The notes beneath the pieces were generated by a model, which made no database searches, was not told the origin of the DNA, and worked only from the letters and a program-made list of their open reading frames with translations. DNA of 64,000 bases from Pseudomonadota bacterium (GTDB lineage: Bacteria > Pseudomonadota > Alphaproteobacteria > Puniceispirillales > Marisalimonadaceae): the NCBI GenBank assembly GCA_027625145.1, contig JAQBXK010000005.1:1-64000 (forward strand). The letters run 5' to 3'. Numbering within the stretch: position 1 is the stretch's first letter; every line of letters begins with the position of its first letter. This document shows positions 6,930 to 37,739 of this stretch, in pieces. The position numbers and the translations under genes are program-made.

Positions 6930-6950
6930 TTAAAAAAAGTGGTAAAAAAA

Positions 6951-8147
6951 ATGAATTTTGAATACTCTGAAAAAGAAAAAGTGTTTCGTGATGATGTTAA
7001 AAAATGGCTGAAAGAAACACTTCCTTCAACTTTATCTGAAAAAGTTAAAAAATATCAAAGATTAAATAGAGAAGATTATGAGATCTTTATGAAAAATTTA
7101 AATGATCGAGGTTGGTTAGCTTGGCATTGGCCTACTGAGTATGGAGGAACGGGATGGAGTGCTATCGAAAAACATATATTTGAAGAAGAAATTATTAATG
7201 CTTCAGCTCCAAGAATAGTTCCCTTTGGAGTGAATATGTTAGGACCTGTTCTTATAGAATTTGGAACAGAAGAACAAAAAAAATACTATCTTCCAAGAAT
7301 ACTAAATAATGAAGATTGGTGGGCTCAAGGGTATTCTGAACCAGGTGCGGGATCTGATTTAGCAAGTTTAAAAACTAGAGCCATTGACCATGGTGATCAT
7401 TACATTGTAAATGGACAAAAAACTTGGACAACACTTGGTCAATATGCGAATAAAATTTTCTGTTTGGTAAAAACTGATATTAATTCCAAACCTCAATCTG
7501 GAATTTCATTCCTTTTAATTGATATGGATACACCAGGAATAGAAGTGAAACCTATTGTAACTCTTGATGGTGAGCACGAGGTAAATGAAGTTTGGTTTAC
7601 TGATGTAAAGGTTCCTAAAAAAAACCTTGTTGGAAAAGAAAACGAAGGTTGGACTTGTGCAAAATATTTATTAACATTTGAACGTACTGGAATTGCAGGT
7701 GTACCCTATTCAAAGTCTGCATTAAACCTCCTAAAAATTATATCAAAAAAGTCCTTTAAAAATGGAAAACCTTTAATTGAAGATCCCGTTTTTTCTTCTG
7801 AAATTGCAGAATTGGAAATAGATCTTTTAGCTATGGAAATATTTAATTTAAGAATAGTTAGTCAAGCATCTGAAGGTAAAGCTCCCGGGATGGAAAGTTC
7901 TTTGTTAAAAATCAAAGGTACCTTAGTTAGACAAAGAACAACAGAATTGCTAAGAAAAGCTCTTGGCCCTCAAGCTCTACCTTACTTACCTGAACAGTTT
8001 GATGAAGGTTGGAACGATATGCCTATTGGACCTGATTATGCTGGACCAATAGCAAAACAATATTTTAACATGCGCAAAATTTCTATATATGGAGGATCTA
8101 ATGAAATCCAAAAAAATATAGTAGCTAAAGCATCATTTGGTTTATAG
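6951..8147 (+). CDS. acyl-CoA dehydrogenase (catalytic-type partner of a pair)
   Basis: A 398-aa FAD-dependent acyl-CoA dehydrogenase. The FAD/substrate motif is intact (YSEPGAGSDL), followed by NGQKTWTT, and the C-terminal YGGSNEIQKN segment is typical. A GTG at 6939 would add four residues (MVKK), but the ATG at 6951 begins the conserved MNFEYSEKE and is preferred. The next acyl-CoA dehydrogenase gene starts nine bases after the stop, and the two share an operon. In actinobacteria and proteobacteria such adjacent unequal pairs often form heterotetramers acting on bulky acyl-CoAs such as steroid side chains. The substrate here is unknown. Confidence 0.9.
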   Translation: MNFEYSEKEKVFRDDVKKWLKETLPSTLSEKVKKYQRLNREDYEIFMKNLNDRGWLAWHWPTEYGGTGWSAIEKHIFEEEIINASAPRIVPFGVNMLGPVLIEFGTEEQKKYYLPRILNNEDWWAQGYSEPGAGSDLASLKTRAIDHGDHYIVNGQKTWTTLGQYANKIFCLVKTDINSKPQSGISFLLIDMDTPGIEVKPIVTLDGEHEVNEVWFTDVKVPKKNLVGKENEGWTCAKYLLTFERTGIAGVPYSKSALNLLKIISKKSFKNGKPLIEDPVFSSEIAELEIDLLAMEIFNLRIVSQASEGKAPGMESSLLKIKGTLVRQRTTELLRKALGPQALPYLPEQFDEGWNDMPIGPDYAGPIAKQYFNMRKISIYGGSNEIQKNIVAKASFGL

Positions 8148-8156
8148 GAAATTTTA

Positions 8157-9275
8157 ATGGACTTTTCGCTTTCAGAAGAAAGAAAAATGCTTCAAGAAAC
8201 TATCGCTCGTTTTTTTGAAAATCATTATGACAACATTAATAAGCATCATATTAATGGTAACTTACCTAATGGATTCGATAATAATCTTTGGCAAGAGAGT
8301 GCTGATTTAGGTATAATAAGCGCCTTGGTATCTCCTAATTTTGGTGGATTAGGAGGAACAGGTGAAGATATATCAATAGTTTTTGAATTAATTGGAAAAT
8401 CACTTTGCGTAGAACCATTTCTCTCTACAGCAGTTTTATCTAATACAGTTCTTACATCTATTCCAAACCCTAAAAGTAATTTGATAAGTAAAATTATTGA
8501 AGGAAACTTATTGATATCTTTTGCCCATTCTGAAATGAATAGTAGATATGAAGAAAGCCATATAGAAACAAAAGCAGAATTTAAGAATGATAAATGGTTA
8601 ATTAATGGTGACAAATCATTTGTTCTCAATGGGGATTCATCAGATCAAGTTATTGTAACCGCTAGAATTGAAGGGAACGTTAATGATAGGAATGGTATTG
8701 GAATATTCTTATTAGATAATAAGGAAATCAATAAAAGGTCTTATAATACAATTGATGGATATAGAGCTGCAGAATTAAAATTTGACAATTCTTCTGGAGA
8801 GTTGCTTGCAAGAGATCATCATGCATTGAAATGTATTATCAAAGCTAATTCATCAGGAGCGCTCGCCTTATCTGCAGAGGCTTTAGGTATTATGCAAATT
8901 TGCTTTGATATGACGCTTGATTATTTAAAAACAAGAAAACAGTTTGGAAAATCAGTTGGATCATTTCAAGCAATTCAGCACAGAATGGTTGATATGATGC
9001 TTGAAATTGAACAAGTAAGATCTGCAGTTATGTTAGCATCTTCAACATATCAATCTGATGAAACTTTAAGAGACAAACATATTTCAGCAGCTAAAAATTT
9101 AGTTGGTAGAGTAGGTAAACTTGTAGCTGAAGAAACAATACAGATGCATGGAGGAATAGCAATGACTTGGGAATACTCTGCTGCACATTATGCCAAGAGA
9201 TTGATAATGATTGATCACTTAATGGGTGATAGTGATTATCACAGGGATCGTTTCAAGGTATTAAACAGAATTTAA
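8157..9275 (+). CDS. acyl-CoA dehydrogenase-like (degenerate partner subunit)
   Basis: A 372-aa acyl-CoA dehydrogenase homologue. The C-terminal half is well conserved (TRKQFGKSVGSFQAIQHR, then IQMHGGIAMTWEY). The middle domain lacks the usual TEPxAGSD motif, reading AHSEMNSRY instead. That loss fits the second subunit of an alpha2beta2 acyl-CoA dehydrogenase whose active sites are made with the neighbouring 398-aa protein. Gene order and the nine-base gap support the pairing; heteromer formation is inferred. Its 3' end overlaps the stop of the convergent double hot-dog gene by four bases. Confidence 0.87.
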   Translation: MDFSLSEERKMLQETIARFFENHYDNINKHHINGNLPNGFDNNLWQESADLGIISALVSPNFGGLGGTGEDISIVFELIGKSLCVEPFLSTAVLSNTVLTSIPNPKSNLISKIIEGNLLISFAHSEMNSRYEESHIETKAEFKNDKWLINGDKSFVLNGDSSDQVIVTARIEGNVNDRNGIGIFLLDNKEINKRSYNTIDGYRAAELKFDNSSGELLARDHHALKCIIKANSSGALALSAEALGIMQICFDMTLDYLKTRKQFGKSVGSFQAIQHRMVDMMLEIEQVRSAVMLASSTYQSDETLRDKHISAAKNLVGRVGKLVAEETIQMHGGIAMTWEYSAAHYAKRLIMIDHLMGDSDYHRDRFKVLNRI

Positions 9276-10550: not shown

Positions 10551-10570
10551 AATTAGGATTTTTCCTAATT
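10551..10570. other. small hairpin overlapping a stop codon
   Basis: An 8-bp perfect inverted repeat AATTAGGA/TCCTAATT with a four-base loop. The stop codon of the minus-strand acyl-CoA dehydrogenase (10565-10567) falls inside one arm. The T-run that follows is on the plus strand, where no gene ends, so it is unlikely to be a terminator for the minus-strand operon. It could modestly affect translation or mRNA decay between the two genes. Confidence 0.4.
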
Positions 10571-11767
10571 TTTTTCTCTTAATTCTAATTTCGCAACACT
10601 CATTCTATGAACTTCATCAGGGCCATCGGCTAATCTTAAAGCTCTTGCATATCCGTAAGCGTAGGATAATGGAAAATCTGAAGTTACACCACCTCCACCG
10701 TGAATTTGAATAGCTCTATCAATAACTCTAGCAGCCATATTAGGCGCTATAACTTTAATCATTGATATTTCTTTTCGTGCTACTTTATTACCTACTGTAT
10801 CCATCATATAAGCTGTCTTTAATACTAATAACCTAGCTTGTTCAATCTCCGCTCTACTTTCAGCAATTGCGTGCATTACAACACCCTGTTCTGATATTGA
10901 TTTACCAAAAGCTACTCTAGATTTAGCTCTTTTAACCATTAGTTCAAGAGCCCTTTCTGCTTGACCTATTAATCTCATGCAGTGATGAATTCTTCCTGGC
11001 CCAAGTCTTCCTTGAGCAATTTCAAACCCCCTACCTTCTCCTAATAAAATACTTGATACAGGAACTCTGACATTAGAAAAATCAACTTCTGCATGACCAT
11101 GTGGTGCATGGTCATATCCAAATACAGGAAGATGTCTCAAAACCTTTACTCCAACTGTATCAAAAGGAATTAATATCATAGATTGTTGTTTATATTTATC
11201 TGCATCAGGGTTAGTTTTACCCATAAAAATCATTATTTTACATCGAGGGTCCATAGCCCCAGAAGTCCACCACTTTCTTGCATTTATAACGTACTCACTT
11301 CCATCTTTTACAATGCTGCCTTGAATATTAGAAGCATCAGAAGATGCAACTTCAGGCTCAGTCATGGCAAACGAAGAACGAATTACTCCGTTTAATAAAG
11401 GAGTTAACCACTTAGCTTTTTGTTCTTCAGAACCATACCTTACTAAAACTTCCATATTGCCTGTATCAGGAGCAGAACAATTAAAAATCTCCGCGCCAAT
11501 GGGAGAACGTCCCATTATTTCACAAAGAGGGGCATATTCAATATTAGTTAAACCTGCTCCAAGATTACTGTCTGGAAGAAACATATTCCAAAGTCCTTCA
11601 GCTTTAGCTTTTAGCTTTAATTCTTCCATTATTTCAGGAACACACCATCTTCCGCCATCTTCAACCTGATTGTTATAAACATCTTCATTTTTATAAACAT
11701 TTTCATTCATAAAATTAGTTAATTTTTCTTGAAGTTTTTTTACTTTATTTGAATATTCAAAATCCAT
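10565..11767 (-). CDS. ACAD11-like acyl-CoA dehydrogenase (LvaC type)
   Basis: A 400-aa acyl-CoA dehydrogenase close to the dehydrogenase half of animal ACAD10/ACAD11. It has [13 protein letters not shown] at about 137-149, [30 protein letters not shown] and [11 protein letters not shown]. In ACAD11 and in the bacterial levulinate pathway (LvaA/LvaC), this type works with an APH-like kinase that phosphorylates a 4-hydroxyacyl-CoA so that phosphate can be eliminated to the enoyl-CoA. Here the kinase-type gene lies 21 nt upstream on the same strand. Motifs and neighbour are seen; the substrate is inferred. Confidence 0.88.
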
Positions 11768-22890: not shown

Positions 22891-23349
22891 ATGGTTATTA
22901 TTGACAGTCCGTCAGAAATACAAAAATTTATCAATTTACCTTTGACACCAAGCGAATGGTATCATGTTTCACAAGATAAGATTAATGATTTTGCAGATGC
23001 AACTTCTGATCACCAATGGATTCATGTAGATAAAGAGAGAGCCAAAAATGAAATGCCAGAAGGCAAAACAATAGCTCATGGATATTTTATGCTATCTTTA
23101 CTTCCTGTGCTTGCATCCCAAAATGCTCAGATAAACAATACTTCAAGAACATTAAATTATGGGTCTGATAAGGTAAGGTTTATAAATATGGTCAAAGTAG
23201 GATCATATGTAAGATTAAACCGAAAGATTATCTCTTGTGAAAAAATGGATAATGGAGGGTTTCGTGTTGTTAATAAATGCGAATTAGAAATTAAAGATGA
23301 GAAAAAACCTGGATTTGTAGCAGAAACAATATCTTTAGTTTTTCCATAA
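22891..23349 (+). CDS. MaoC family (R)-specific enoyl-CoA hydratase-like protein
   Basis: A 152-aa single hot-dog protein. The hydratase-2 motif is recognisable as ADATSDHQWIHVD, with the catalytic pair D40 and H45, then TIAHGYFMLSLLP at about 60-72. The family hydrates trans-2-enoyl-CoA to (R)-3-hydroxyacyl-CoA or acts in related acyl-CoA steps. It is first of a two-gene unit with the quinone-oxidoreductase-like gene 28 nt downstream. A modest AGGAAAAA ribosome site precedes the ATG. Confidence 0.87.
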   Translation: MVIIDSPSEIQKFINLPLTPSEWYHVSQDKINDFADATSDHQWIHVDKERAKNEMPEGKTIAHGYFMLSLLPVLASQNAQINNTSRTLNYGSDKVRFINMVKVGSYVRLNRKIISCEKMDNGGFRVVNKCELEIKDEKKPGFVAETISLVFP

Positions 23350-24491: not shown

Positions 24492-25016
24492 ATGATAAAA
24501 ACACTACAAATTATATTTACGATTATAATTTTTGGATTGAGTTCATCACAATCGTTTGCTGAAAAACGTCAATTAGAAAGCCATGAGCATGGGGTAAGTA
24601 AATTACAAATTGTAATTGAGGAAAACATTATTCAATATGAGCTTGAAGCTCCTGCAAATGATATAGTTGGGTTTGAAAACTCTCCTAAAAATACACAGCA
24701 GAAAGAATCTATAAATAAAGCTATCAATCTGTTTAAGAATACCGATCGATTATTTACAACATCATCTAATGCTAATTGTAGATCTAGCAAAATTGATATT
24801 AAATTTGAAGTTGAGGGTACTCATGCAGGATTTCATGCAAAATGGAATAGTAATTGTAAAAAAATATCTGAATTAACAGAATTAACAACTAAGTTTTTTC
24901 AAATATTTCCAAAAGCTGAAGAATTAGAAGTTCAGATAATTTCTGAGAAAGGTCAGAGTGCTATTGAATGGGAAAGTGATACAAAAACAATTAAAATCCC
25001 AAAAATACATAATTAA
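24492..25016 (+). CDS. DUF2796 (ZrgA-like) periplasmic protein
   Basis: A 174-aa secreted protein. The signal peptide is MIKTLQ, a hydrophobic core and a probable cleavage after QSFA. The mature N-terminus begins RQLESHEHGVSKLQI, the family's His-containing metal-site signature, and the C-terminal QIFPKAEELEVQIIS is also typical. ZrgA of Vibrio cholerae belongs to a zinc-starvation operon with MacB-like transporter genes, and the same order is seen here. Only one His-rich motif (HEH) is present, fewer than in some relatives. Zinc or another divalent metal is the expected ligand by family. Confidence 0.85.
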   Translation: MIKTLQIIFTIIIFGLSSSQSFAEKRQLESHEHGVSKLQIVIEENIIQYELEAPANDIVGFENSPKNTQQKESINKAINLFKNTDRLFTTSSNANCRSSKIDIKFEVEGTHAGFHAKWNSNCKKISELTELTTKFFQIFPKAEELEVQIISEKGQSAIEWESDTKTIKIPKIHN

Positions 25017-25035
25017 ATTAGGCTTTGAAAAACCC

Positions 25036-25758
25036 ATGAAAAATATTCAATCAGCAATCCAATTATCTAATTTATACTTTTCATGGGGTAATTCAGCAAA
25101 CGACTTTAACTTCAAACTTAATAATTTTGTCTTACCCATAAATACAAGTGGAATTATTTTGGGCTCATCTGGTTCAGGAAAATCAACGCTCTTAGGTATT
25201 ATTAGCGGCATTACAAAACCTAATGTTGGTGTTGTTAAAGTATTAGGAGAAGACCTTTTTAAAATGACAGGCTCACAAAGAGATAGATTTCGAGCAGATA
25301 ATATAGGAATTATATTTCAACAGTTCAACCTCATACCTTATCTTTCAACATTAGAAAATGTTCTATTACCATTAAGGTTATCCTTAAAAAGAAGAATATC
25401 ATGCGGTTCTTCTAAAGAACAATATATTTACGAAGCAAAAAAGCTACTTGATGCATTAGGTGTATCATCAAAAAAGTTTGGAAATCAATTAGCTAGCACC
25501 TTATCAGTTGGTCAACAACAAAGAGTTGCAGCAGCTAGAGCTTTTATTGGTTCTCCTCCACTAATTATTGCAGATGAACCAACCTCTTCACTTGATGAAA
25601 TAAGTGAAACAGATTTTCTTAAACAATTATTCAAGCAAACAAGTACTAACAAAACTACTTTATTATTGGTAAGTCATAACAAAAAAATTATTCCAAAATT
25701 TAATAAATCATTTGAAATCACTGATATTATTCAATCAACCTTAAGTCAGAAAACATAA
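25036..25758 (+). CDS. ABC transporter ATPase, LolD/MacB-like (Zrg-type operon)
   Basis: A 240-aa ATPase. It has the Walker A GSSGSGKST (43-51), Q-loop FQQFNLIPYLSTLENV, signature LSVGQQQRVAAARA, Walker B LIIADEPTSSLDE and switch His in LLVSHN. The ATG at 25036 is preferred over an upstream frame start at 24958 that would overlap the DUF2796 gene by 59 bases. It is 19 nt behind that gene and two codons' width from the permease. It belongs to the lipoprotein/macrolide-export mechanical ABC class rather than nutrient importers. The role in metal handling is inferred from the operon. Confidence 0.88.
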   Translation: MKNIQSAIQLSNLYFSWGNSANDFNFKLNNFVLPINTSGIILGSSGSGKSTLLGIISGITKPNVGVVKVLGEDLFKMTGSQRDRFRADNIGIIFQQFNLIPYLSTLENVLLPLRLSLKRRISCGSSKEQYIYEAKKLLDALGVSSKKFGNQLASTLSVGQQQRVAAARAFIGSPPLIIADEPTSSLDEISETDFLKQLFKQTSTNKTTLLLVSHNKKIIPKFNKSFEITDIIQSTLSQKT

Positions 25759-25759
25759 T

Positions 25760-27019
25760 ATGTTAGTATTTAATCTTGCATACAAAAGTATAATGAATCG
25801 AAAATTAACATCATTACTTACTATTATATCTATTTCATTATCAGTAATTTTAATATTAAGCGTTGAAAAAATTCGAAAGTCCACAAGAACAAGTTTTATA
25901 AACACAATATCAGGAACAGATTTGGTTATTGGCCCTAGAGCAAGTGGAATTCAACTTTTACTTTATTCTGTTTTTCATATGGGAGATGCAACCGCAAACA
26001 TAACAATAAAAACAGTGGAAGACATTAAAAAAAGAAGTGAAATTGATTGGGTTGTTCCAATATCATTAGGCGATTCTCACAAAGGTTTTAGAGTAATAGG
26101 AACCACTAATAATTATTTCGAACGAATTCGTTATCGAAGAAATATGACTTTAAAATTTGACAAAGGAAATTCTTTTTCAAATCTTTTTGAAGCAGTTATT
26201 GGTAATGATGTTGCTAATTCATTAGGTTATAATGTAGGCGACAAAATCATTTTAGCACATGGAACTGGTGATGTAATTTTTGGAAAAGATCATAGCGACA
26301 CCCCTTTTATAATATCTGGCATTTTAGAAAAAACTGGTACACCATCAGATCGAGCTGTAATAGTTAGCCTAGAGGCTATTGAAGCTATTCACATAGGTTG
26401 GAATTCCGGCACATATGACAAAAAAATTAAAACCGTAAAAGATTATAAAGCTATAAATTTAAAACCTACAAATGTTACAGCTCTTTTTGTTGGACTCAAA
26501 TCAAGAATGACAACTTTTTCATTTCAAAGATGGATAAACAGATATTCTCAAGAGCCTATTACTGCAATTCTTCCAGGAGTTGTTTTTGGTGAATTATGGT
26601 CTTTAATCATTAATATAGAAAAAGCACTTTTTATAGTAACATCTATGGTTGTGTTCACAGCCTTACTTGGCATGATAGTTTCAATATTAAGTTCATTAAA
26701 CGAACGTCGAAGAGAAATGGCCATTTTAAGATCATTGGGAGCAAAACCTATACATATATTCACTTTATTTATTACTGAATCTTCATGTATTGCTTTTTTA
26801 GGTGTGTTTTCAGGAGCTACAACTATGTATGCTTTACTTTTTACTTTCAAATCAATTATAGAAAAGTTTACAGGACTTTATATTGAGATTACTTCTCCTG
26901 GAAACAATGAATTTATAATTATGTTGATTATTATATTAGCTAGTATAATTTCTGGTGTAATACCTGCTCTAAGAGCCTATTCTCTTTCACTTTCAGATGG
27001 TTTAATTGTAAAATCATGA
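25760..27019 (+). CDS. MacB/FtsX-type ABC transporter permease (Zrg-type operon)
   Basis: A 419-aa permease with one N-terminal membrane helix (about residues 15-37), a periplasmic MacB core domain of about 220 residues and three C-terminal helices beginning near residue 285. The cytoplasmic loop NERRREMAILRSLGAKP between helices is the FtsX-family hallmark. It starts one base after the ATPase stop (TAATATG) and overlaps the DUF3299 gene by ATGA, so all four genes are coupled. Such permeases transmit ATP energy to periplasmic partners rather than opening a classic channel. Confidence 0.88.
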   Translation: MLVFNLAYKSIMNRKLTSLLTIISISLSVILILSVEKIRKSTRTSFINTISGTDLVIGPRASGIQLLLYSVFHMGDATANITIKTVEDIKKRSEIDWVVPISLGDSHKGFRVIGTTNNYFERIRYRRNMTLKFDKGNSFSNLFEAVIGNDVANSLGYNVGDKIILAHGTGDVIFGKDHSDTPFIISGILEKTGTPSDRAVIVSLEAIEAIHIGWNSGTYDKKIKTVKDYKAINLKPTNVTALFVGLKSRMTTFSFQRWINRYSQEPITAILPGVVFGELWSLIINIEKALFIVTSMVVFTALLGMIVSILSSLNERRREMAILRSLGAKPIHIFTLFITESSCIAFLGVFSGATTMYALLFTFKSIIEKFTGLYIEITSPGNNEFIIMLIIILASIISGVIPALRAYSLSLSDGLIVKS

Positions 27020-27588
27020 CATTAGAAAAAATGATAAAATCTTTTTCCAAATTTTTAATTTTAATTTTTTTGTTAATTATTAATAGTTTTTCATTCGCAG
27101 ATAACAAAAAGATTTCATGGGATGATTTGGTGCCAAATGAAGAAGCAGGAGTTAAAATAAATACAACTGGTATAAACACAAAAGGCATTCCAGATATTTC
27201 TAAATTTGGAGGCTCTAAAGAAGAATTAAATAGATTTTTAAATGATATGAAGGAATTTAAAAAGCTGCAAAAAAAAGATGCTCTTATAAATACTAAGTTT
27301 GATGGAAGTAAGATAAAAATTCCTGGCTACATTGTACCTCTTACTTTTGATGGAGATAATATAATTGAATTTCTCTTAGTTCCAAATTTAGGAGCATGCA
27401 TTCATGTTCCACCTCCCCCCGCAAACCAAATCATTTATATTAAATCTGCCAAAGGATTGAAAGCAGAACAGGTTAACTCAGCTGTTTGGGTTTCTGGTAT
27501 GCTAAAAGCTAAATCTGTTTCTACGATAGTAGCAGATGTTGGTTATACTATAGATGAAGCTGCAGTGACTTCATATTCATCATGGTAA
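27016..27588 (+). CDS. DUF3299 periplasmic protein (Zrg-type operon)
   Basis: A 190-aa exported protein with a hydrophobic N-terminal segment and a probable signal cleavage after SFSFA. The family core is present: KIPGYIVPLTFDGDNI, then GACIHVPPPPANQIIYI with a conserved Cys-His pair, plus VWVSGML and VGYTIDEAAV. DUF3299 proteins recur downstream of ZrgA-ATPase-permease genes, and their function is undefined. Translation is coupled to the permease by a 4-bp ATGA overlap. An alternative ATG five codons in (27031) would leave the signal peptide intact. Confidence 0.82.
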   Translation: MTLEKMIKSFSKFLILIFLLIINSFSFADNKKISWDDLVPNEEAGVKINTTGINTKGIPDISKFGGSKEELNRFLNDMKEFKKLQKKDALINTKFDGSKIKIPGYIVPLTFDGDNIIEFLLVPNLGACIHVPPPPANQIIYIKSAKGLKAEQVNSAVWVSGMLKAKSVSTIVADVGYTIDEAAVTSYSSW

Positions 27589-27608: not shown

Positions 27609-28799
27609 TTATATAGTCTCACTGACACCCCAAATATTTGTTACCTGACTTGATAAAACTCCACCATTTCCATGGGCAACAGAAAGCTTTGCATTTGGAA
27701 TCCAGCCTCCATTTAATCTTTTACCCACATTGTCTCCAGAAGAGTTTCTTAATTGTCTTATTGCTTCTATAGTAACAAAAAGGCCATACATTCCAGGATG
27801 AACACATGACAACCCTCCCCCATTTGTATTAACTGGCAAATTACCAGATGGACCTATATTATTATTTTTAATTAAATTTATAGCTTCACCTTTATTACAA
27901 AATCCTAAATCTTCTAAAAATAACAAAGTATTAATTGTAAATGCATCATAAAGTTGAATAGTATTCATATCTTTAGGTAAATACCCAGACATTGCAAAAG
28001 CTCTTTTTCCACTGTCTATGGCAGATGTTCTAACTAAATCAGGCATCTCAGAAATCATGCGATGATGATGTTCCATTGCAGCACCTAAAAGATAAATTGG
28101 AGTGTTTTTGGTATCTTTTGCTCTATCTGCTCTTGTCATTACAACAGCAGCAGCACCATCAGTTACAAGACAACAATCAAGTTTTCCTAAAGGATCAACT
28201 ATAGGTCGAGCTGATAACACTTCATTTACTGATAGAGGACCATCGTTATGAGTATAAGCTCTAGGATTTAAAAGTGCCCATTCACGAGCTGAAACAGCAA
28301 CATTAGCAAGATCTTCTCGTGTGGCGCCAAATTCATACATATATCTCTTAGCAGCTAATGCATATGCAGTTACAGGCATTCTTGGTTCATATTGAGCTTC
28401 ATATGGCATAGCTTCAGAAATAGTTTTAAAACCTCCAATACTTTTCTGATTAGAACCATAGGCAACAACTGCAACATTAATTAAACCAGCATCAAGAGCC
28501 ATTGCAGCTGTTAAAATATGTGAAAGAAAACTTGATCCACCAATTTGAGATCCATCGGCAAATTTAGGTTTTACACCAAGATATTCTGATAAAGACATTG
28601 CAGCCATAGAATGAAAAGCTGTAGCAGCAAAAATTCCATCAACTTCACTTAACTTTATACCTGCATCATCTAGGGCATCATGAACAGAGTTTGCCATTAT
28701 TTCCATAGCACTCCAGCCCTTAGCAATTCCACAACCACTTTCAGCCAAACCAACTACAGCTGTTTTACCTTTTAACTTATTTATATCATTATAACCCAT
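27609..28799 (-). CDS. thiolase-like protein lacking the nucleophilic Cys (Ltp2/SCP-x type)
   Basis: A 396-aa thiolase-fold protein of the lipid-transfer/SCP-x branch. The position of the acylated cysteine reads QIGGSSFLSH (85-94), with serines and no Cys. The C-terminal GLSCVHPGMYG keeps the histidine motif. Cys-less thiolase-like proteins that pair with DUF35 partners include Ltp2-type retro-aldolases that cleave steroid side-chain hydroxyacyl-CoAs. Here the DUF35 gene is immediately upstream, five bases away. A C-C cleaving aldolase role is therefore inferred; ordinary thiolysis is unlikely. Confidence 0.82.
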   Translation of the reverse strand: MGYNDINKLKGKTAVVGLAESGCGIAKGWSAMEIMANSVHDALDDAGIKLSEVDGIFAATAFHSMAAMSLSEYLGVKPKFADGSQIGGSSFLSHILTAAMALDAGLINVAVVAYGSNQKSIGGFKTISEAMPYEAQYEPRMPVTAYALAAKRYMYEFGATREDLANVAVSAREWALLNPRAYTHNDGPLSVNEVLSARPIVDPLGKLDCCLVTDGAAAVVMTRADRAKDTKNTPIYLLGAAMEHHHRMISEMPDLVRTSAIDSGKRAFAMSGYLPKDMNTIQLYDAFTINTLLFLEDLGFCNKGEAINLIKNNNIGPSGNLPVNTNGGGLSCVHPGMYGLFVTIEAIRQLRNSSGDNVGKRLNGGWIPNAKLSVAHGNGGVLSSQVTNIWGVSETI

Positions 28800-28804
28800 T
28801 AAAA

Positions 28805-29194
28805 TTATCCCTCTACAATATCAAAAATTATGGCCGGCTCTCCTTTTAAAGAAGAAATTCTAGCTTTAACCTTTTGTCCAATGACAACTTGATCAGGTGC
28901 CACACCTTTAATTTTTGCCATCATCCTTGGCCCTTCTTGAAGGGTAATTAATGATATGTTAAAATCGCCTCCTTTTTCTGGCAATCTTCTATTACAACTA
29001 GTACTATAAACAATTCCATTTCCTGAAGCTTCAACCCATTCCAAATCACGTTCCCCTGTTCCAGGAAAAGCTACTCTTGGGTGAAAGAAAAATTTATTTA
29101 GACTTTTGCTTTTTTGTATCATGAATTTACCTTCTGAAAGGTAATTCTTAAATTGTTGTTCTGGACCTATAGAACCTGTTAAGTTTTCTGGCAT
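28805..29194 (-). CDS. OB-fold protein (DUF35), zinc-ribbon cysteines lost
   Basis: A 129-aa DUF35-family partner protein. The OB-fold core is clear (SGNGIVYSTSCNRRLP, ISLITLQEGPRMMAKI, KVKARISS). The N-terminal rubredoxin-like ribbon, normally four cysteines around a PRxxCPxCG stretch, reads FFHPRVAFPGTGERD without them, so it cannot bind zinc in the usual way. DUF35 proteins bind thiolase-like enzymes and help form the acyl-CoA site. The gene pair order with the Cys-less thiolase and the ADP-forming synthetase suggests one operon. Confidence 0.8.
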   Translation of the reverse strand: MPENLTGSIGPEQQFKNYLSEGKFMIQKSKSLNKFFFHPRVAFPGTGERDLEWVEASGNGIVYSTSCNRRLPEKGGDFNISLITLQEGPRMMAKIKGVAPDQVVIGQKVKARISSLKGEPAIIFDIVEG

Positions 29195-29219: not shown

Positions 29220-31304
29220 TTATTTGGTTACAATCAAAGCATCAAGAGCAATTATTTGATCTTCGCTTACAATCACTGGGTTCATTTCGACTTGATCGAC
29301 TTGATCTTTATTAGCTGCAATAAAATTGGACAAAGTAACTATTAACTGTGTTAAAGCTTTTACATCAATTGGTGCTTGCCCTCTAGCACCATAAAACAAA
29401 TCTTTACACTTTAGAGAAAGGATCATTTTTTCAGCTTTTTCATTTGATAAAGGAGCTTCTGCAAAAACAATGTCTTTCATGATCTCAGCGTATATACCAC
29501 CAAGCCCAAACATAATAATAGGGCCAAAAACCGGATCAATTTTAGCACCCAATATACATTCAAAACCCCCTTCAATCATTGGAGAAAGCATTACACCTTC
29601 AATTTTAGCATTAGGGGCATTCTTTTTTACATTCGACAATATTTGTTCATAAGCTTTTTTTGCTTGTTCAACACCTTCAATATTTAATATGACACCACCA
29701 ACATCCGTTTTATGTTGAATCTCAGATGAAACTATTTTCATCACGTGTTTGTTCTGATTTTCATTAAATATCGCAGATAATTCGTCTATATTATTAATTA
29801 AAAAAGACGAAACTATTGGTAAACCAGCTTCTCTTAAAATTTCACTGCAATCAATTTCATTTAATTTTTTTTGAGGAATTTTAACTAAAAAGTCATTTTC
29901 ATTAAAATTGTTTTTAAATTTATTCTCATTAAACTTTTCACCAAAAAACATTAAAGCAGACATGGCTACTACAGCTCTAGTAGGGTCCTCAATACATATA
30001 AAGCCTTCATCTTCATAAGTCTTAACTATTTCCTCAGAAGCAACCATACAATTGATAAAAAGTTTCTCCTCGTAACCTGTCATTGCTTGCTTTAAAGATG
30101 AAAGTAATGGCGTTGCTATAACAGGCGATCCAGCAGCAGATGTCCAAAATCCAATTAATGCATCATAACCACCTCTAGATAACATTAAATCAGTAAATTT
30201 TGGAACAATAGATAAATCATTAAAAAACTGAGCAGTAACATCTACCGGATTCATTGGAGAAGCAAAAGGAACAAGCTCTTTTAGTATATCTTGTGCATCC
30301 TGTGGCATTGGTCCAACTGTTAAACCTACATCAGACGCGGCGTCAGCCATCAAAACACCTCCACCACCGGAAATTGTTACAATACCTAAATTTTTGCCTA
30401 CAGGAAAAATTCTAGGTTTAGTGGCATAAGCAACATCAAGCATTTCTTCAGTGCTTTTAACTCTGTAAGCACCATGAGCTCTTAAAACTTCATCATAAAT
30501 AGCATCTTCTCCAGCCAATGAAGCTGTGTGAGAATTTGCTGCTGCTGCTCCAACTTCTGACCTACCAACTTTCATAAATATTACAGGCTTCTTTTCAGAT
30601 CTTGCTGTGTCTAAAGCTTTTGTAAATTGAGGTCCATTTTTAACACTTTCTGCATAAGCCATTATGGTATGCACTTCGGGATCTTCGGCCATTAATTGAA
30701 TTGTTTCTCCAACGGATAAATCAACTTCATTACCAGTAGTCATCCAATACGTAATATCAAGACCTCTCTCTTGGGCAACCATATAAATATGACTTCCATA
30801 TGCTCCAGATTGACTTGCAATTGCAAAGCCGCCTGGTTTAGGGGTTGTTCTATTAACTGTTGTGGTGAAAGTAGGAAAAAAATTATTAGACGAATTAAAC
30901 AGACCTAAACAATTTGGACCAATAACTCTAAGGCCACTCTCTTGACTAATTTTTTTGATTTGATTTTGTAAAATTTCACCTTGAGCACCAATTTCTGAAA
31001 ATCCAGATGAGAATATTAATGCTGTTTTTGCTTTTTTAATAACTGCTTCTTCTAATACAGATACAACTATTTTAGATGGAACAGAAACTAAAACAAAATC
31101 AAGATCTCCCTTGACATCAAGGAGGCTAGAATAAGCCTTTATACCCTGAACTGTTTCCCTATTAGGGTTAATCGGATATACGTCACCAGAAAAATTTTTC
31201 TCAATCATATTAGCTAAAGGACGTCCTCCAATTCTACTTTTAGTATCGGAAGCACCAACAATTGCTATTGATTTAGGTGACATTATTTCTTTTAAAGTCG
31301 TCAT
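29220..31304 (-). CDS. ADP-forming acyl-CoA synthetase (acetate-CoA ligase family)
   Basis: A 694-aa fused two-subunit synthetase. The N-terminal CoA-binding domain (IAIVGASDTKSRIGGRP), succinyl-CoA-ligase-like domain (VIGPNCLGLFN, SQSGAYG) and catalytic histidine in NSHTASLAGED (H259) are followed by a C-terminal ATP-grasp domain from about residue 480. The family interconverts acyl-CoA and acid with ADP/ATP through phospho-His. It heads the minus-strand trio with the DUF35 and thiolase-like genes, so it may activate the acid these act on. The acid is unknown. Confidence 0.88.
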   Translation of the reverse strand: MTTLKEIMSPKSIAIVGASDTKSRIGGRPLANMIEKNFSGDVYPINPNRETVQGIKAYSSLLDVKGDLDFVLVSVPSKIVVSVLEEAVIKKAKTALIFSSGFSEIGAQGEILQNQIKKISQESGLRVIGPNCLGLFNSSNNFFPTFTTTVNRTTPKPGGFAIASQSGAYGSHIYMVAQERGLDITYWMTTGNEVDLSVGETIQLMAEDPEVHTIMAYAESVKNGPQFTKALDTARSEKKPVIFMKVGRSEVGAAAANSHTASLAGEDAIYDEVLRAHGAYRVKSTEEMLDVAYATKPRIFPVGKNLGIVTISGGGGVLMADAASDVGLTVGPMPQDAQDILKELVPFASPMNPVDVTAQFFNDLSIVPKFTDLMLSRGGYDALIGFWTSAAGSPVIATPLLSSLKQAMTGYEEKLFINCMVASEEIVKTYEDEGFICIEDPTRAVVAMSALMFFGEKFNENKFKNNFNENDFLVKIPQKKLNEIDCSEILREAGLPIVSSFLINNIDELSAIFNENQNKHVMKIVSSEIQHKTDVGGVILNIEGVEQAKKAYEQILSNVKKNAPNAKIEGVMLSPMIEGGFECILGAKIDPVFGPIIMFGLGGIYAEIMKDIVFAEAPLSNEKAEKMILSLKCKDLFYGARGQAPIDVKALTQLIVTLSNFIAANKDQVDQVEMNPVIVSEDQIIALDALIVTK

Positions 31305-33719: not shown

Positions 33720-33754
33720 TTTTGATAGCCCTAATTCAGGCTATCAAAATTTTT
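33720..33754 (+). terminator. intrinsic terminator overlapping a convergent stop codon
   Basis: An 11-bp perfect stem TTTTGATAGCC/GGCTATCAAAA with an eight-base loop, followed by five T on the plus strand, so it should end the MDR reductase transcript. The right arm encodes the last residues of the convergent FadJ-like protein and the loop contains its stop codon (33731-33733). No T-run follows on the minus strand. Confidence 0.85.
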
Positions 33755-35827
33755 ATTGTTTTTCACTAAATCAATCAACAACTCAGGTGGAGACCAAAAT
33801 CTAGGGTCTTCTTCAGAAAATTTCTGTATATTTAATAATATTTTATCTAATCCAACCATGTCAGCGTATTTCATTGGACCACCTCTCCATCTAGGAAACC
33901 CATACCCATTCGTGTACACCACGTCTATATCTGAAGGACGAATTGCTATTTTTTCTTGCAATATTTTTACACCTTCGAAAACCATTGCAGCTATGTATTT
34001 ATCTAGTATTTCTTGATCCGAAAAGCTTTTAGGTTTTATTCCAACTCTTTGTCTTTCATTTTCACAAATTATATTAATTTCAGGATTTGCTGTTAAAGGT
34101 TTTATACCATCACCATAAAGGTAATAGCCTTTAGAAGTTTTCTGTCCAAACCAACCATTTTCACAAACTCTGTCTGCTATTTCTACATATCGATCATCCT
34201 TATGACGAAAAGGAGCCTTCCTTTTTCTAGTAGCCCAACCAATATCGCCACCAGCCAGATCTATTACCTGAAACACACCCATGGCACATCCAAAATTTCT
34301 TAAGACTGTATCAATATGAAAAGGGCTAGCTCCGTCTTCAACCATATGATAAGTACCAATTAAATACTTAGAAAGAACTCTGTTTCCAATAAATCCATCA
34401 CAAACACCAGAACGGACAGGAACTTTTTTCATTCTTTTAGCTAATAAGAAAGCTGTAGCAACAGTATCATCAGAAGTTTTGTCTGCGACCACTATTTCAA
34501 GTAATTTCATAATATTAGCAGGAGAGAAAAAATGAAGCCCAATTACCCTACTTGGATTTTCAACTACTGAGGCTATCTCATTAACATCTAAATAGCTTGT
34601 GTTAGATGCTAAAATACATTCTTTACTACAAATTGTATTTAGCTTAGCAAAAACTTGTTTTTTAATTTCCATGTTTTCAAAAACAGCTTCAATAACTAAT
34701 TCTCTATCAATAAGATTATCCATATTGGTAACTGCTGTAAATAAACTCATTATTTGATTTTTTTGTTCAGAAGAAATTCGACCTAACTTAACATTTCGAT
34801 CATAAGTTGCATTGATTTTTGTTAAAGCTTTCTCAATAGCTTCATCATTCTGTTCTATCATTACAACAGAAAAACCTGCGTTCATTGCAGCCATTGAAAT
34901 ACCAGTGCCCATGGTGCCTCCGCCAATAACACCTATTTTTTTAAGTTCTTTAGGTTTGCCTAATTCTAGCTCAGGAACTTTTGTTATTGCTCTCTCTGCA
35001 AAAAAAGAGTGAATTAAGCCTTGTCTTTGAGGACTTTCAATACATTCTTTAAACAACCTTCTTTCATTATCTATAGCATTAGGAAAGCTTAAATTTAATC
35101 CCTCTTCGACTGATTTGATAATAGCGTGGGGAGAAAAGAGATTTTTAGCTTTAATTAAAGTTTCAGATTTAATTTTTTCTATTGTCTTTTTTATTTCATC
35201 TAAATTATCAATTTTATCACTTATTTCTGAGGTAGGACGGACATCACTATTTCTTTTAAGTAATCTCCTTGCGTATGATATTCCGTTTTTTACCGTATCA
35301 TCATCTTCAGCTATTTCATCAATAATTCCATTTTTAAATGCTTCATCTATATTTACATGCCTGCCTGTTAACATCATATCTAAAGCCATGGAAACTCCAC
35401 ATAATCTTGGAAGACGTTGAGTTCCTCCAGCGCCTGGAAGAATTCCTAACAAAACCTCAGGAAGTCCAACTTTAGTCTTTGGAGCTGCAATTCTATAATG
35501 AGCAGACATTGCAACTTCAAGTCCTCCACCTAAAGGAGTGCCATGTAAAGAAGCAACAACAACCTTGTCTAGAACTTCAATTTTATCACAAACTTCACTT
35601 AAAATTGGTCCATCTACATTTTTCCCAAATTCTTTAATATCTGCCCCTGCTAAAAAAGTTCTTCCAGGTGCTGCTATTACAATTGCTTTGATTAAATTAT
35701 TCGCCCCAAGCTCATTAATGCTATTTAACAAACCTTTTCGAACAGAAGCACTAATTGCATTTACAGGAGGATTCGAAATTTCAATTAACCCAATTTCATC
35801 TATTATCGTGTGTTTAACTTCAGTCAT
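33731..35827 (-). CDS. bifunctional enoyl-CoA hydratase/3-hydroxyacyl-CoA dehydrogenase (FadJ-like)
   Basis: A 698-aa beta-oxidation enzyme. Residues 1-190 are an enoyl-CoA hydratase domain: an oxyanion segment FLAGADIKEF and both catalytic glutamates, E104 in GGGLEVA and E124 in LPEVLLG. The 3-hydroxyacyl-CoA dehydrogenase domain begins with the NAD motif GGGTMG (302-307) and keeps the catalytic HFFSPA histidine. It hydrates enoyl-CoA and oxidises the product to 3-oxoacyl-CoA. Its stop codon is inside a hairpin shared with the convergent gene. No separate FadI thiolase with an intact cysteine is in view. Confidence 0.93.
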   Translation of the reverse strand: MTEVKHTIIDEIGLIEISNPPVNAISASVRKGLLNSINELGANNLIKAIVIAAPGRTFLAGADIKEFGKNVDGPILSEVCDKIEVLDKVVVASLHGTPLGGGLEVAMSAHYRIAAPKTKVGLPEVLLGILPGAGGTQRLPRLCGVSMALDMMLTGRHVNIDEAFKNGIIDEIAEDDDTVKNGISYARRLLKRNSDVRPTSEISDKIDNLDEIKKTIEKIKSETLIKAKNLFSPHAIIKSVEEGLNLSFPNAIDNERRLFKECIESPQRQGLIHSFFAERAITKVPELELGKPKELKKIGVIGGGTMGTGISMAAMNAGFSVVMIEQNDEAIEKALTKINATYDRNVKLGRISSEQKNQIMSLFTAVTNMDNLIDRELVIEAVFENMEIKKQVFAKLNTICSKECILASNTSYLDVNEIASVVENPSRVIGLHFFSPANIMKLLEIVVADKTSDDTVATAFLLAKRMKKVPVRSGVCDGFIGNRVLSKYLIGTYHMVEDGASPFHIDTVLRNFGCAMGVFQVIDLAGGDIGWATRKRKAPFRHKDDRYVEIADRVCENGWFGQKTSKGYYLYGDGIKPLTANPEINIICENERQRVGIKPKSFSDQEILDKYIAAMVFEGVKILQEKIAIRPSDIDVVYTNGYGFPRWRGGPMKYADMVGLDKILLNIQKFSEEDPRFWSPPELLIDLVKNNKNFDSLN

Positions 35828-35841
35828 TTAGTCCTCATCAA

Positions 35842-36807
35842 TTAAAGTAGTTTATTTTTAGCGTCTTGATACTCGTTATTAATTCTTTTTATTAAATCCT
35901 TAGCAGGTAAAATTGATTTTACAGCAGATATACCTTGTCCAGAACCCCATATTTCTTTCCAACTTTTTGGTTTTGATGCACCAGAACTAAAATTCATTTT
36001 ACTATTATCACTAGTTTCAAGATTATGAGGATCTAATCCCTGCGCTTCAATAGATCCTTTTAAATAGTTACCATGAACTCCAGTGAAAAGATTAGTATAG
36101 ATAATATCATCAGCTGATGAGTTTGTTATCATTTCTTTATAACGTTGATCTGCATTAGCCTCATTAGTAGCAATAAATGCCGACCCAATATAAGCTAAAT
36201 CTGCCCCCATAGCTTGGGCAGCTAATACAGCTCCTCCATTAGCTATTGATCCAGATAACAATAATGTCCCATCAAACCATTCACGTATTTCTTGAATTAA
36301 TGCAAATGGTGATAAAGTTCCAGCATGCCCTCCCGCTCCTGCAGCTACGGCAACAAGTCCATCTGCTCCTTTATCAATTGCTTTTTTTGCAAAAAAATTA
36401 TTTATTACATCATGTAAAACTATTCCATTAACTTCATGAGCTACTTTATTTACTTCTGGCCTAGCTCCTAATGATGTAATCCAAATAGGCGCTTTCCATT
36501 TAGCACAAATATCAATATCTTTTTCAAGTCTGACATTAGATTTATGAACAATGTGATTAACAGCATATGGTGCAGCTGGGTTTTCAGAGTTTTCTTGATT
36601 AAACTTATCTAACTCTTCATTGATTTTTTTAAGCCAGGTTTCCAACATATTTGGCTCCCCTTCCTCTTCTCTTGCATTTAAACAAGGAAAAGATCCAACA
36701 ATGCCAGCTTTACATTGAGCTATAACTAAATCAGGGTTTGATATTATAAATAAAGGTGACCCTACAATAGGAATTTTTAATTTATCTAAAGGTGATATAA
36801 GCGTCAA
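35842..36807 (-). CDS. nitronate monooxygenase / 2-nitropropane dioxygenase-like
   Basis: A 321-aa FMN-dependent TIM-barrel enzyme. The family histidine is in GAGGHAGTLSPF (H161), with GSFPCLNARE early and GADLAYIGSAFIATNEA for flavin binding. Characterised relatives oxidise alkyl nitronates, while others act as enoyl-ACP reductases or unknown FMN oxidoreductases. It sits 14 nt upstream of the FadJ-like gene on the same strand, so an acyl-CoA-related role is possible and the nitronate label is only the family name. Confidence 0.83.
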   Translation of the reverse strand: MTLISPLDKLKIPIVGSPLFIISNPDLVIAQCKAGIVGSFPCLNAREEEGEPNMLETWLKKINEELDKFNQENSENPAAPYAVNHIVHKSNVRLEKDIDICAKWKAPIWITSLGARPEVNKVAHEVNGIVLHDVINNFFAKKAIDKGADGLVAVAAGAGGHAGTLSPFALIQEIREWFDGTLLLSGSIANGGAVLAAQAMGADLAYIGSAFIATNEANADQRYKEMITNSSADDIIYTNLFTGVHGNYLKGSIEAQGLDPHNLETSDNSKMNFSSGASKPKSWKEIWGSGQGISAVKSILPAKDLIKRINNEYQDAKNKLL

Positions 36808-36938: not shown

Positions 36939-37739
36939 ATGAATTTAAGTGATGCTGATTTAAAAAAATTTGATGAAGATGGTTATTTATTTTTTCCAAA
37001 AATGTTTAATTCTGAAGAAGCTTCCTTGTTAAAAAAAGAAGCTGATAAAGTATATTCAGAAGATAGAAAAGAAGTATGGAAAGAAAGTTCTGGCGTTGCA
37101 AGAACAGCATTTGCTGCCCACAAATATAATGAAGCATTTAGTCGCCTAGGATCTCACCCAAGATTAATTAACCCTGTCACACAAGTGTTAGACGGAGACA
37201 TATACATGCATCAATTTAAGTTAAATGCTAAAGCAGCATTTGATGGAGCAGTATGGCAATGGCATCAAGATTATGGAACGTGGAAAAGAGATGACGGAAT
37301 GCCCGAGCCTAGAGCAATGAATATAGCGGTTTTTCTTGACGATGTTACAGCTGCTAACGGTCCCTTATTATTTATTCCTGGGAGTCATAAGGTAGGGGTT
37401 ATTGAGGCCGGCCATGATTTAGAAACAACAAGTTATCCTCTTTGGACTCTAGATAATGAAAAAGTTCTTGAGTTAGCTAAAAGAGGTGGCTGTGTTGCTC
37501 CTACTGGTCCAGCAGGAAGTATGCTTATGTTTTCTTCATTACTTGTTCATGCAAGCCCTCCAAATATTTCACCATTTGGAAGGACAATTGTTTATCTTTC
37601 ACTATGTCATGTAGACAACCATATACGTGAATTCAAACGTGAAGAATGGATTGCTCATAGAGATTTTACCCCTATTTCACCACTTAATGACAATTGTTTA
37701 TCAGAATTAGTTAATCAACAAGTAAGTGCTGCTGAATAA
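36939..37739 (+). CDS. phytanoyl-CoA dioxygenase family protein, EctD-like
   Basis: A 266-aa Fe(II)/2-oxoglutarate dioxygenase. The metal triad is visible as H109 and D111 in WQWHQDYGTW and H204 in LLVHASPPN, with the 2-oxoglutarate arginine R215. The stretch RDDGMPEPRAMN resembles ectoine hydroxylase, though the substrate may be any small polar metabolite. It has no signal peptide. The clear GGGAG site and TTGATT/TATTAT upstream suggest it begins a plus-strand operon with the phosphatase and SAF-type oxidoreductase. Family and cofactors are secure; the hydroxylated substrate is not. Confidence 0.88.
   Translation: MNLSDADLKKFDEDGYLFFPKMFNSEEASLLKKEADKVYSEDRKEVWKESSGVARTAFAAHKYNEAFSRLGSHPRLINPVTQVLDGDIYMHQFKLNAKAAFDGAVWQWHQDYGTWKRDDGMPEPRAMNIAVFLDDVTAANGPLLFIPGSHKVGVIEAGHDLETTSYPLWTLDNEKVLELAKRGGCVAPTGPAGSMLMFSSLLVHASPPNISPFGRTIVYLSLCHVDNHIREFKREEWIAHRDFTPISPLNDNCLSELVNQQVSAAE

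Follow-up and report, generated by a model that had tools for sequence, protein, structure and literature searches.

Two adjacent genes on the minus strand of the 64,000-nucleotide stretch of DNA analysed here (the window), from an alphaproteobacterium of the marine SAR116 cluster, pose the question of what a thiolase-fold protein without its nucleophilic cysteine might do in company with a DUF35 protein without its zinc-ribbon cysteines, and whether such a pair is a singular reduced form or the member of a larger family.

Gene content of the locus and of its relatives

The features bearing on this question are the following.

27609-28799, minus strand: Cys-less thiolase-fold YDAF protein, 396 aa (NF004811, PF22691, tree, model)
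28805-29194, minus strand: DUF35 / ChsH2-type OB-fold partner, 129 aa, ribbon cysteines absent (PF01796)
29220-31304, minus strand: ADP-forming acyl-CoA synthetase, 694 aa (PF13607, PF13549, PF13380, PF19045)
33731-35827, minus strand: enoyl-CoA hydratase / 3-hydroxyacyl-CoA dehydrogenase fusion, FadB/FadJ-like (PF00378, PF02737, PF00725)
35842-36807, minus strand: NMO/FabK-like flavoprotein, syntenic with the pair (PF03060)
22891-23349, plus strand: MaoC-type hydratase (PF01575)
24492-27588, plus strand: zinc-uptake-type operon (ZrgA PF10986, ABC ATPase, FtsX-like permease, DUF3299)

The genes for the enzyme and the DUF35 protein are separated by 5 bp, and the synthetase gene lies 25 bp upstream of the DUF35 gene on the same strand, a spacing and orientation that make the three genes resemble a single operon. 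The original prediction had placed an ADP-forming synthetase beside the pair, and this is borne out here and by the recurrence of such synthetases beside other pairs of the family. The synthetase retains H259 in the motif SHTASLAGED. The FadB/FadJ-like fusion is likely to belong to the same pathway as the pair, and the MaoC-type hydratase is a candidate supplier of 3-hydroxyacyl-CoA. Three acyl-CoA-dehydrogenase-like genes (6939-8147, 8157-9275 and 10565-11767), situated 16-20 kb from the pair, fall in one cluster with known acyl-CoA dehydrogenases and could be the source of the dehydrogenation step that is absent from the immediate cluster. A gene for a PhyH-family dioxygenase (36939-37739, plus strand) is also found near the cluster, with relatives in the SAR116 loci L039-L041, and the ZrgA-type zinc-uptake operon converges on the pair, with about 20 bp between it and the end of the gene for the Cys-less enzyme.

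Profile matching within 10 kb of 81 family loci identified a DUF35 gene in 76 of them, along with acyl-CoA dehydrogenases (53), crotonases (46), SDR proteins (39), MaoC hydratases (33), CoA-transferases III (31), ADP-forming synthetases (25), AMP-binding synthetases (18) and NMO/FabK-like proteins (PF03060; 13). Annotated plasmid loci carry the same kinds of genes. The closest named relatives are 80-92% identical (L037-L041) and include uncultured alphaproteobacteria of the SAR116 cluster. The order NMO-like protein, FadB-like fusion, synthetase, DUF35 protein and enzyme is retained in L039-L041, a related gene set with a FadB-like profile match upstream of the synthetase is present in L042-L045, and L037, L039 and L041 each have a MaoC gene in the vicinity of the pair. 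A close copy of the enzyme, truncated in one case, occurs in 40 of the 58 genomes of the host bacterium's own family, many of which are incomplete, and the 78 other genomes of the order yielded a 53% identical relative in one and remote homologs in seven. A pattern scan of genome contigs confirmed at least 584 stretches encoding a relative, indicating that the family is large.

Active site and phylogenetic placement of the enzyme

The enzyme matches NF004811 (PRK06158) with 549 bits against a curated cut-off of 421, and also PF22691. Its best PDB matches by sequence are 4u4e (E-value 2.3e-97; 46% identity), CtSal (4.7e-55; 34%) and TcLtp2 (1.3e-43; 31%). The motif GGSSFLSH had originally been read as a thiolase position without its cysteine, and alignment with Cys-bearing SCP2-type thiolases agrees, placing Gly87 at the position of the nucleophile (SQIGGSSFLS in the enzyme versus IEAACASGGA, VEAACASGSL and VEGACASGGL). 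The thiolase HDxF (or NEAF) motif is absent, its histidine replaced by Tyr284 in YDAF, and the CxG cysteine is missing from the corresponding stretch, VAHGNGG, so that the GHP-type histidine, H334 in HPGMYG, is the sole thiolase active-site residue retained. Across 52 aligned sequences, G87, G88, Y284, D285, A286, F287, H334, P335, G336 and M337 are invariant. Comparison with four relatives (L037, L039-L041) gave dN/dS values of approximately 0.05-0.11 in the enzyme gene and 0.07-0.23 in the DUF35 gene; these low values and the invariance of the active-site residues argue that the two oddities of the pair reflect neither chance nor decay.

To place the enzyme among its relatives, we inferred a maximum-likelihood tree of 75 rows, including 51 YDxF Cys-less proteins, SCP2-type Cys thiolases, BbsB and archaeal thiolases, with the PDB rows taken from HMMER alignments in which some terminal residues are missing, and with TbSLP not included. 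A branch with 100/100 support leaves all 51 YDxF proteins, among them TcLtp2, CtSal and the enzyme, on one side, and the sampled thiolases just listed on the other, and this split retained a support of 100 after removal of the motif columns and three long rows. The tree thus recovers the kinship with Ltp2 and Sal enzymes proposed in the original prediction; a grouping with classical thiolases, which that prediction had named as its refutation, was looked for in the tree and not seen. Within the clade, the enzyme's subclade is separate from Ltp2 and Sal (100/99), the position of CtSal relative to it being less certain owing to a long branch (100/93 and 83/62 in two trees). All sampled YDxF proteins lack the cysteine at the nucleophile position and all sampled non-YD proteins have it, except PDB 4yzo (Sulfolobus tokodaii ST0096). 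Having lost the thiolase cysteine (DNTSGSGGS) and kept the HD motif (LHDMAT), 4yzo is, judging by its motifs, a case of cysteine loss outside the YDxF clade. We conclude that the enzyme is almost certainly not a thiolase.

The structure prediction that had been asked for at the outset was carried out on single chains and points in the same direction. The model of the enzyme (pLDDT 89.7, with low confidence in loop 335-337) matches 4u4e best, followed directly by the Sal-Shy (9myr) and Ltp2-ChsH2 (6ok1) aldolases, with a TM-score of approximately 0.85 to both. The likeness to 4u4e, a putative thiolase from Sphaerobacter thermophilus, and to NF004811/PRK06158 as a whole extends to the GGSS and HPGMYG motifs, the lack of the cysteine and the YDxF motif, which reads YDSF in 4u4e and YDAF here; the name of NF004811 implies a thiolase, but the residues contradict it. 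With the bile-acid aldolase of Comamonas testosteroni, CtSal-Shy(DUF35), the enzyme shares the fold, the glycine at the cysteine position, the tyrosine base of YDxx and a DUF35 partner, whereas Cys304 and Gln352 of CtSal are replaced by Ala286 and His334. The C3 steroid side-chain aldolase TcLtp2-ChsH2(DUF35) likewise has the same fold, YDxF, no cysteine and a DUF35 partner, but differs in Tyr344 (His334 in the enzyme) and in reading YDHF instead of YDAF. The DUF35-dependent Cys thiolases BbsAB (7pxp) and the archaeal complex 6esq have the thiolase fold and a DUF35 partner in common with the pair, but keep the nucleophilic cysteine and HDxF, and their DUF35 proteins bind zinc through four cysteines.

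The DUF35 partner and its zinc ribbon

The DUF35 protein matches PF01796 (now the ChsH2 C-terminal OB-fold) with 49.9 bits against a cut-off of 27.1 (3.1e-13), and is the single match to this profile in the whole genome. Its N-terminus had been described as lacking all ribbon cysteines, and the alignment confirms this: the C-x2-C...C-x2-C positions are occupied by S29, L32, F43 and T46, and a zinc ribbon (C-x2-C-x10-C-x2-C or Cys3His1) is absent. The model (pLDDT 90.6) nonetheless fits ribbon-bearing DUF35 structures best, with ChsH2-DUF35 first, followed by Trf and Shy-DUF35. ChsH2 has a C4 ribbon and the DUF35 domain of Shy, part of a MaoC-containing protein, binds zinc by Cys3His1, whereas the protein encoded here is free-standing and has no ribbon cysteines.

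The state of the ribbon is bimodal among the 113 family pairs, this one included: all four cysteines are present in 55, none or one in 58, and two or three in no pair. It changes about ten times on the enzyme tree, with at least three changes forced by well-supported branches, and the ribbon-less members share a replacement motif, RSxSTGxxVFYPRVxxPGTGxxDLEWV. In the host bacterium's own family the first ribbon cysteine is sometimes present (IQRCKSLN) and sometimes a serine. Decay of the DUF35 gene was considered and rejected on the grounds of its dN/dS and of the conserved replacement motif; taken with the repeated changes on the tree, these indicate that the ribbon-less protein is a stable and recurrent form. 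The original description of the pair as singular and further reduced does not hold, because cysteine loss is a trait of the YDxF clade as a whole, NCBIfam already lists the family, and the ribbon is missing in approximately half of the family, as the C4 ribbon is in IpfE, discussed below.

An ADP-forming synthetase lies within 4 kb of 21 of 38 ribbon-less pairs and of none of 42 ribbon-bearing pairs (Fisher P = 2.8e-9), an association that is confounded by relatedness, comprises three independent pairs on supported branches and is not established after correction for the tree. Neighboring genes for MaoC hydratases, CoA-transferases, AMP-binding synthetases and acyl-CoA dehydrogenases showed no correlation with ribbon loss (Fisher P of 0.1 to 0.8). 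Some ribbon-bearing pairs (L053, L059, L116 and similar) have a two-domain MaoC hydratase as their immediate neighbor, an arrangement reminiscent of the Shy-Sal pairing but unfused. Zinc sparing, suggested by the neighboring ZrgA-type operon, was also considered; we treat this neighbor as a coincidence, since the L041 pair adjoins other genes and ribbon-less DUF35 proteins occur in non-marine bacteria too (for example Pseudomonas and Paraburkholderia).

Predicted reaction and alternative readings

We consider it likely that the pair constitutes a thiolase-fold retro-aldolase and its DUF35 partner, operating in a route of acyl-CoA breakdown. The substrates would probably be non-steroid 3-hydroxyacyl-CoAs and, by analogy with Ltp2 chemistry, our guess is a 3-hydroxy compound that cannot be oxidized to a ketone, such as a tertiary alcohol. 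In the proposed route, the ADP-forming synthetase would join a carboxylic acid to CoA, the resulting ester would be turned into the 3-hydroxyacyl-CoA by a dehydrogenase and a hydratase of the MaoC or crotonase type, and the Cys-less enzyme would split its Calpha-Cbeta bond without thiolysis. Tyr284 of YDAF would abstract the proton of the 3-OH and an aldehyde or ketone would depart, leaving an acetyl-CoA or propionyl-CoA enolate to be protonated, most likely by His334. For the enzyme dimer, the DUF35 protein would be a structural partner whose ribbon region would keep its fold but bind no zinc. The reaction type, the formation of an enzyme-DUF35 complex and the absence of zinc from the ribbon-less protein are what we infer from the residues and neighbors described above; a hydratase and a CoA-activating enzyme beside a Cys-less thiolase fold are what a hydrate-then-retro-aldol route predicts.

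In CtSal, which has a glycine at the cysteine position, Tyr302 and Cys304 are essential and the C304A substitution abolishes activity, while TcLtp2 uses the catalytic pair Tyr294 and Tyr344, of which Tyr294 is essential (PMC12329534). In an ungapped alignment, His334 falls at the positions of Ltp2 Tyr344 and Sal Gln352, and Ala286 at that of Sal Cys304, so that neither known general acid, Ltp2 Tyr344 or Sal Cys304, is present in the enzyme. The retained tyrosine base, the alanine and the placement of His334 together suggest a Tyr284-His334 acid-base pair. Retention of His334 is not by itself an argument for an aldolase, since the same residue is the ordinary thiolase histidine. Points that count against the retro-aldolase include the alanine that inactivates CtSal and that the enzyme has by nature, the low confidence of the model in loop 335-337, and the FadB-like fusion, which could oxidize ordinary 3-hydroxyacyl-CoAs, for which a retro-aldolase would be unnecessary. 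A further one is that in the literature we found no measured activity for any NF004811 family member and no paper tying 4u4e, apparently unpublished and entered as a 'putative thiolase', to a function.

The retained fold and GHP histidine, and the database name 'acetyl-CoA acetyltransferase', would agree with a thiolase or acyltransferase relying on another nucleophile, be it Ser89, Ser90 or a displaced cysteine. Position 89, however, is S, A, G or C across the family, which led us to reject the serines as substitute nucleophiles, the loop holds no conserved nucleophile in place of the cysteine, the HDxF histidine has become a tyrosine and the tree sets the enzyme apart from every sampled Cys thiolase, making this reading very improbable. 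A steroid side-chain aldolase proper, orthologous to Ltp2 or Sal, would belong to the same clade and have the same fold; the separate subclade and identities of only 31-34% led us to reject orthology, the acid position differs and the DUF35 protein carries no fused hydratase, and we give this reading very little credence.

Aldol reactions are reversible, and the enzyme might instead run in the biosynthetic direction as an aldol- or Claisen-type condensing enzyme, or decarboxylate malonyl-CoA-like esters. TbSLP, a related Cys-less protein, is a slow decarboxylase of malonyl-CoA, but CtSal does not decarboxylate it (PMC12329534), and the neighboring genes are those of catabolism (for CoA activation, acyl-CoA dehydrogenases, hydratases and substrate-binding proteins), so we regard both variants as unlikely. 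Several homologs are named 'lipid-transfer protein', as would suit a non-catalytic scaffold binding CoA or lipid, yet the active-site residues are invariant across the 52 sequences, selection on the gene is purifying, and those clade members from bacteria that have been characterized are enzymes (PMC12329534); such a role appears highly improbable.

The pair belongs to a catalogued and widespread family with a distinct active site, which under the retro-aldolase reading is mislabeled; it is set apart from known aldolases by its acid position and by a partner without zinc ribbon. If this reading is right, many genes of Alpha-, Beta- and Gammaproteobacteria and of some Actinobacteria encode aldolases under the name of thiolase or acetyl-CoA acetyltransferase, and models of metabolism resting on those names are wrong; the fold would support a third acid-base arrangement (Tyr-His, beside Tyr-Tyr and Tyr-Cys), and aldolases for non-steroid CoA esters would be added to those known. 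The apparent dispensability of the DUF35 ribbon also turns the role of its zinc into a direct question. A doubtful but possible extension is that the whole NF004811 family ('acetyl-CoA acetyltransferase') consists of thiolase-fold retro-aldolases of a third class, which would use a Tyr-His pair on 3-hydroxyacyl-CoAs of non-steroid kind, and that within it ribbon loss accompanies a change of partner, the zinc-free DUF35 protein perhaps coupling synthetase to aldolase.

A parallel is provided by the ibuprofen pathway of Rhizorhabdus wittichii MPO218. IpfD, commonly named an SCPx thiolase, was proposed from genetics to remove the acyl-CoA group of dihydroxylated ibuprofen-CoA (PMC6063337), and an ipfD insertion mutant does not grow on ibuprofen (PMC9195938). 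Identified through the accessions in PMC11347016, IpfD (plasmid pIBU218, L168:5229-6827) has YDAF, lacks the cysteine and falls within the YD clade, and IpfE is a free-standing DUF35 protein without a C4 ribbon, so that both absences co-occur in a genetically supported pathway. As here, a CoA synthetase gene is adjacent, but it is of the AMP-binding type; IpfD is 31% identical to the enzyme, has a tyrosine at the acid position as Ltp2 does and is placed by the tree nearer to Ltp2 within the clade, at weak support (80/46). From these residues, ibuprofen side-chain removal may be a retro-aldol reaction. The same plasmid encodes a second pair of an OB-fold protein and an Ltp2-like protein (L167:8552-10116), 58% identical to TcLtp2 and with an intact C4 ribbon, which adjoins crotonase and CoA-transferase genes.
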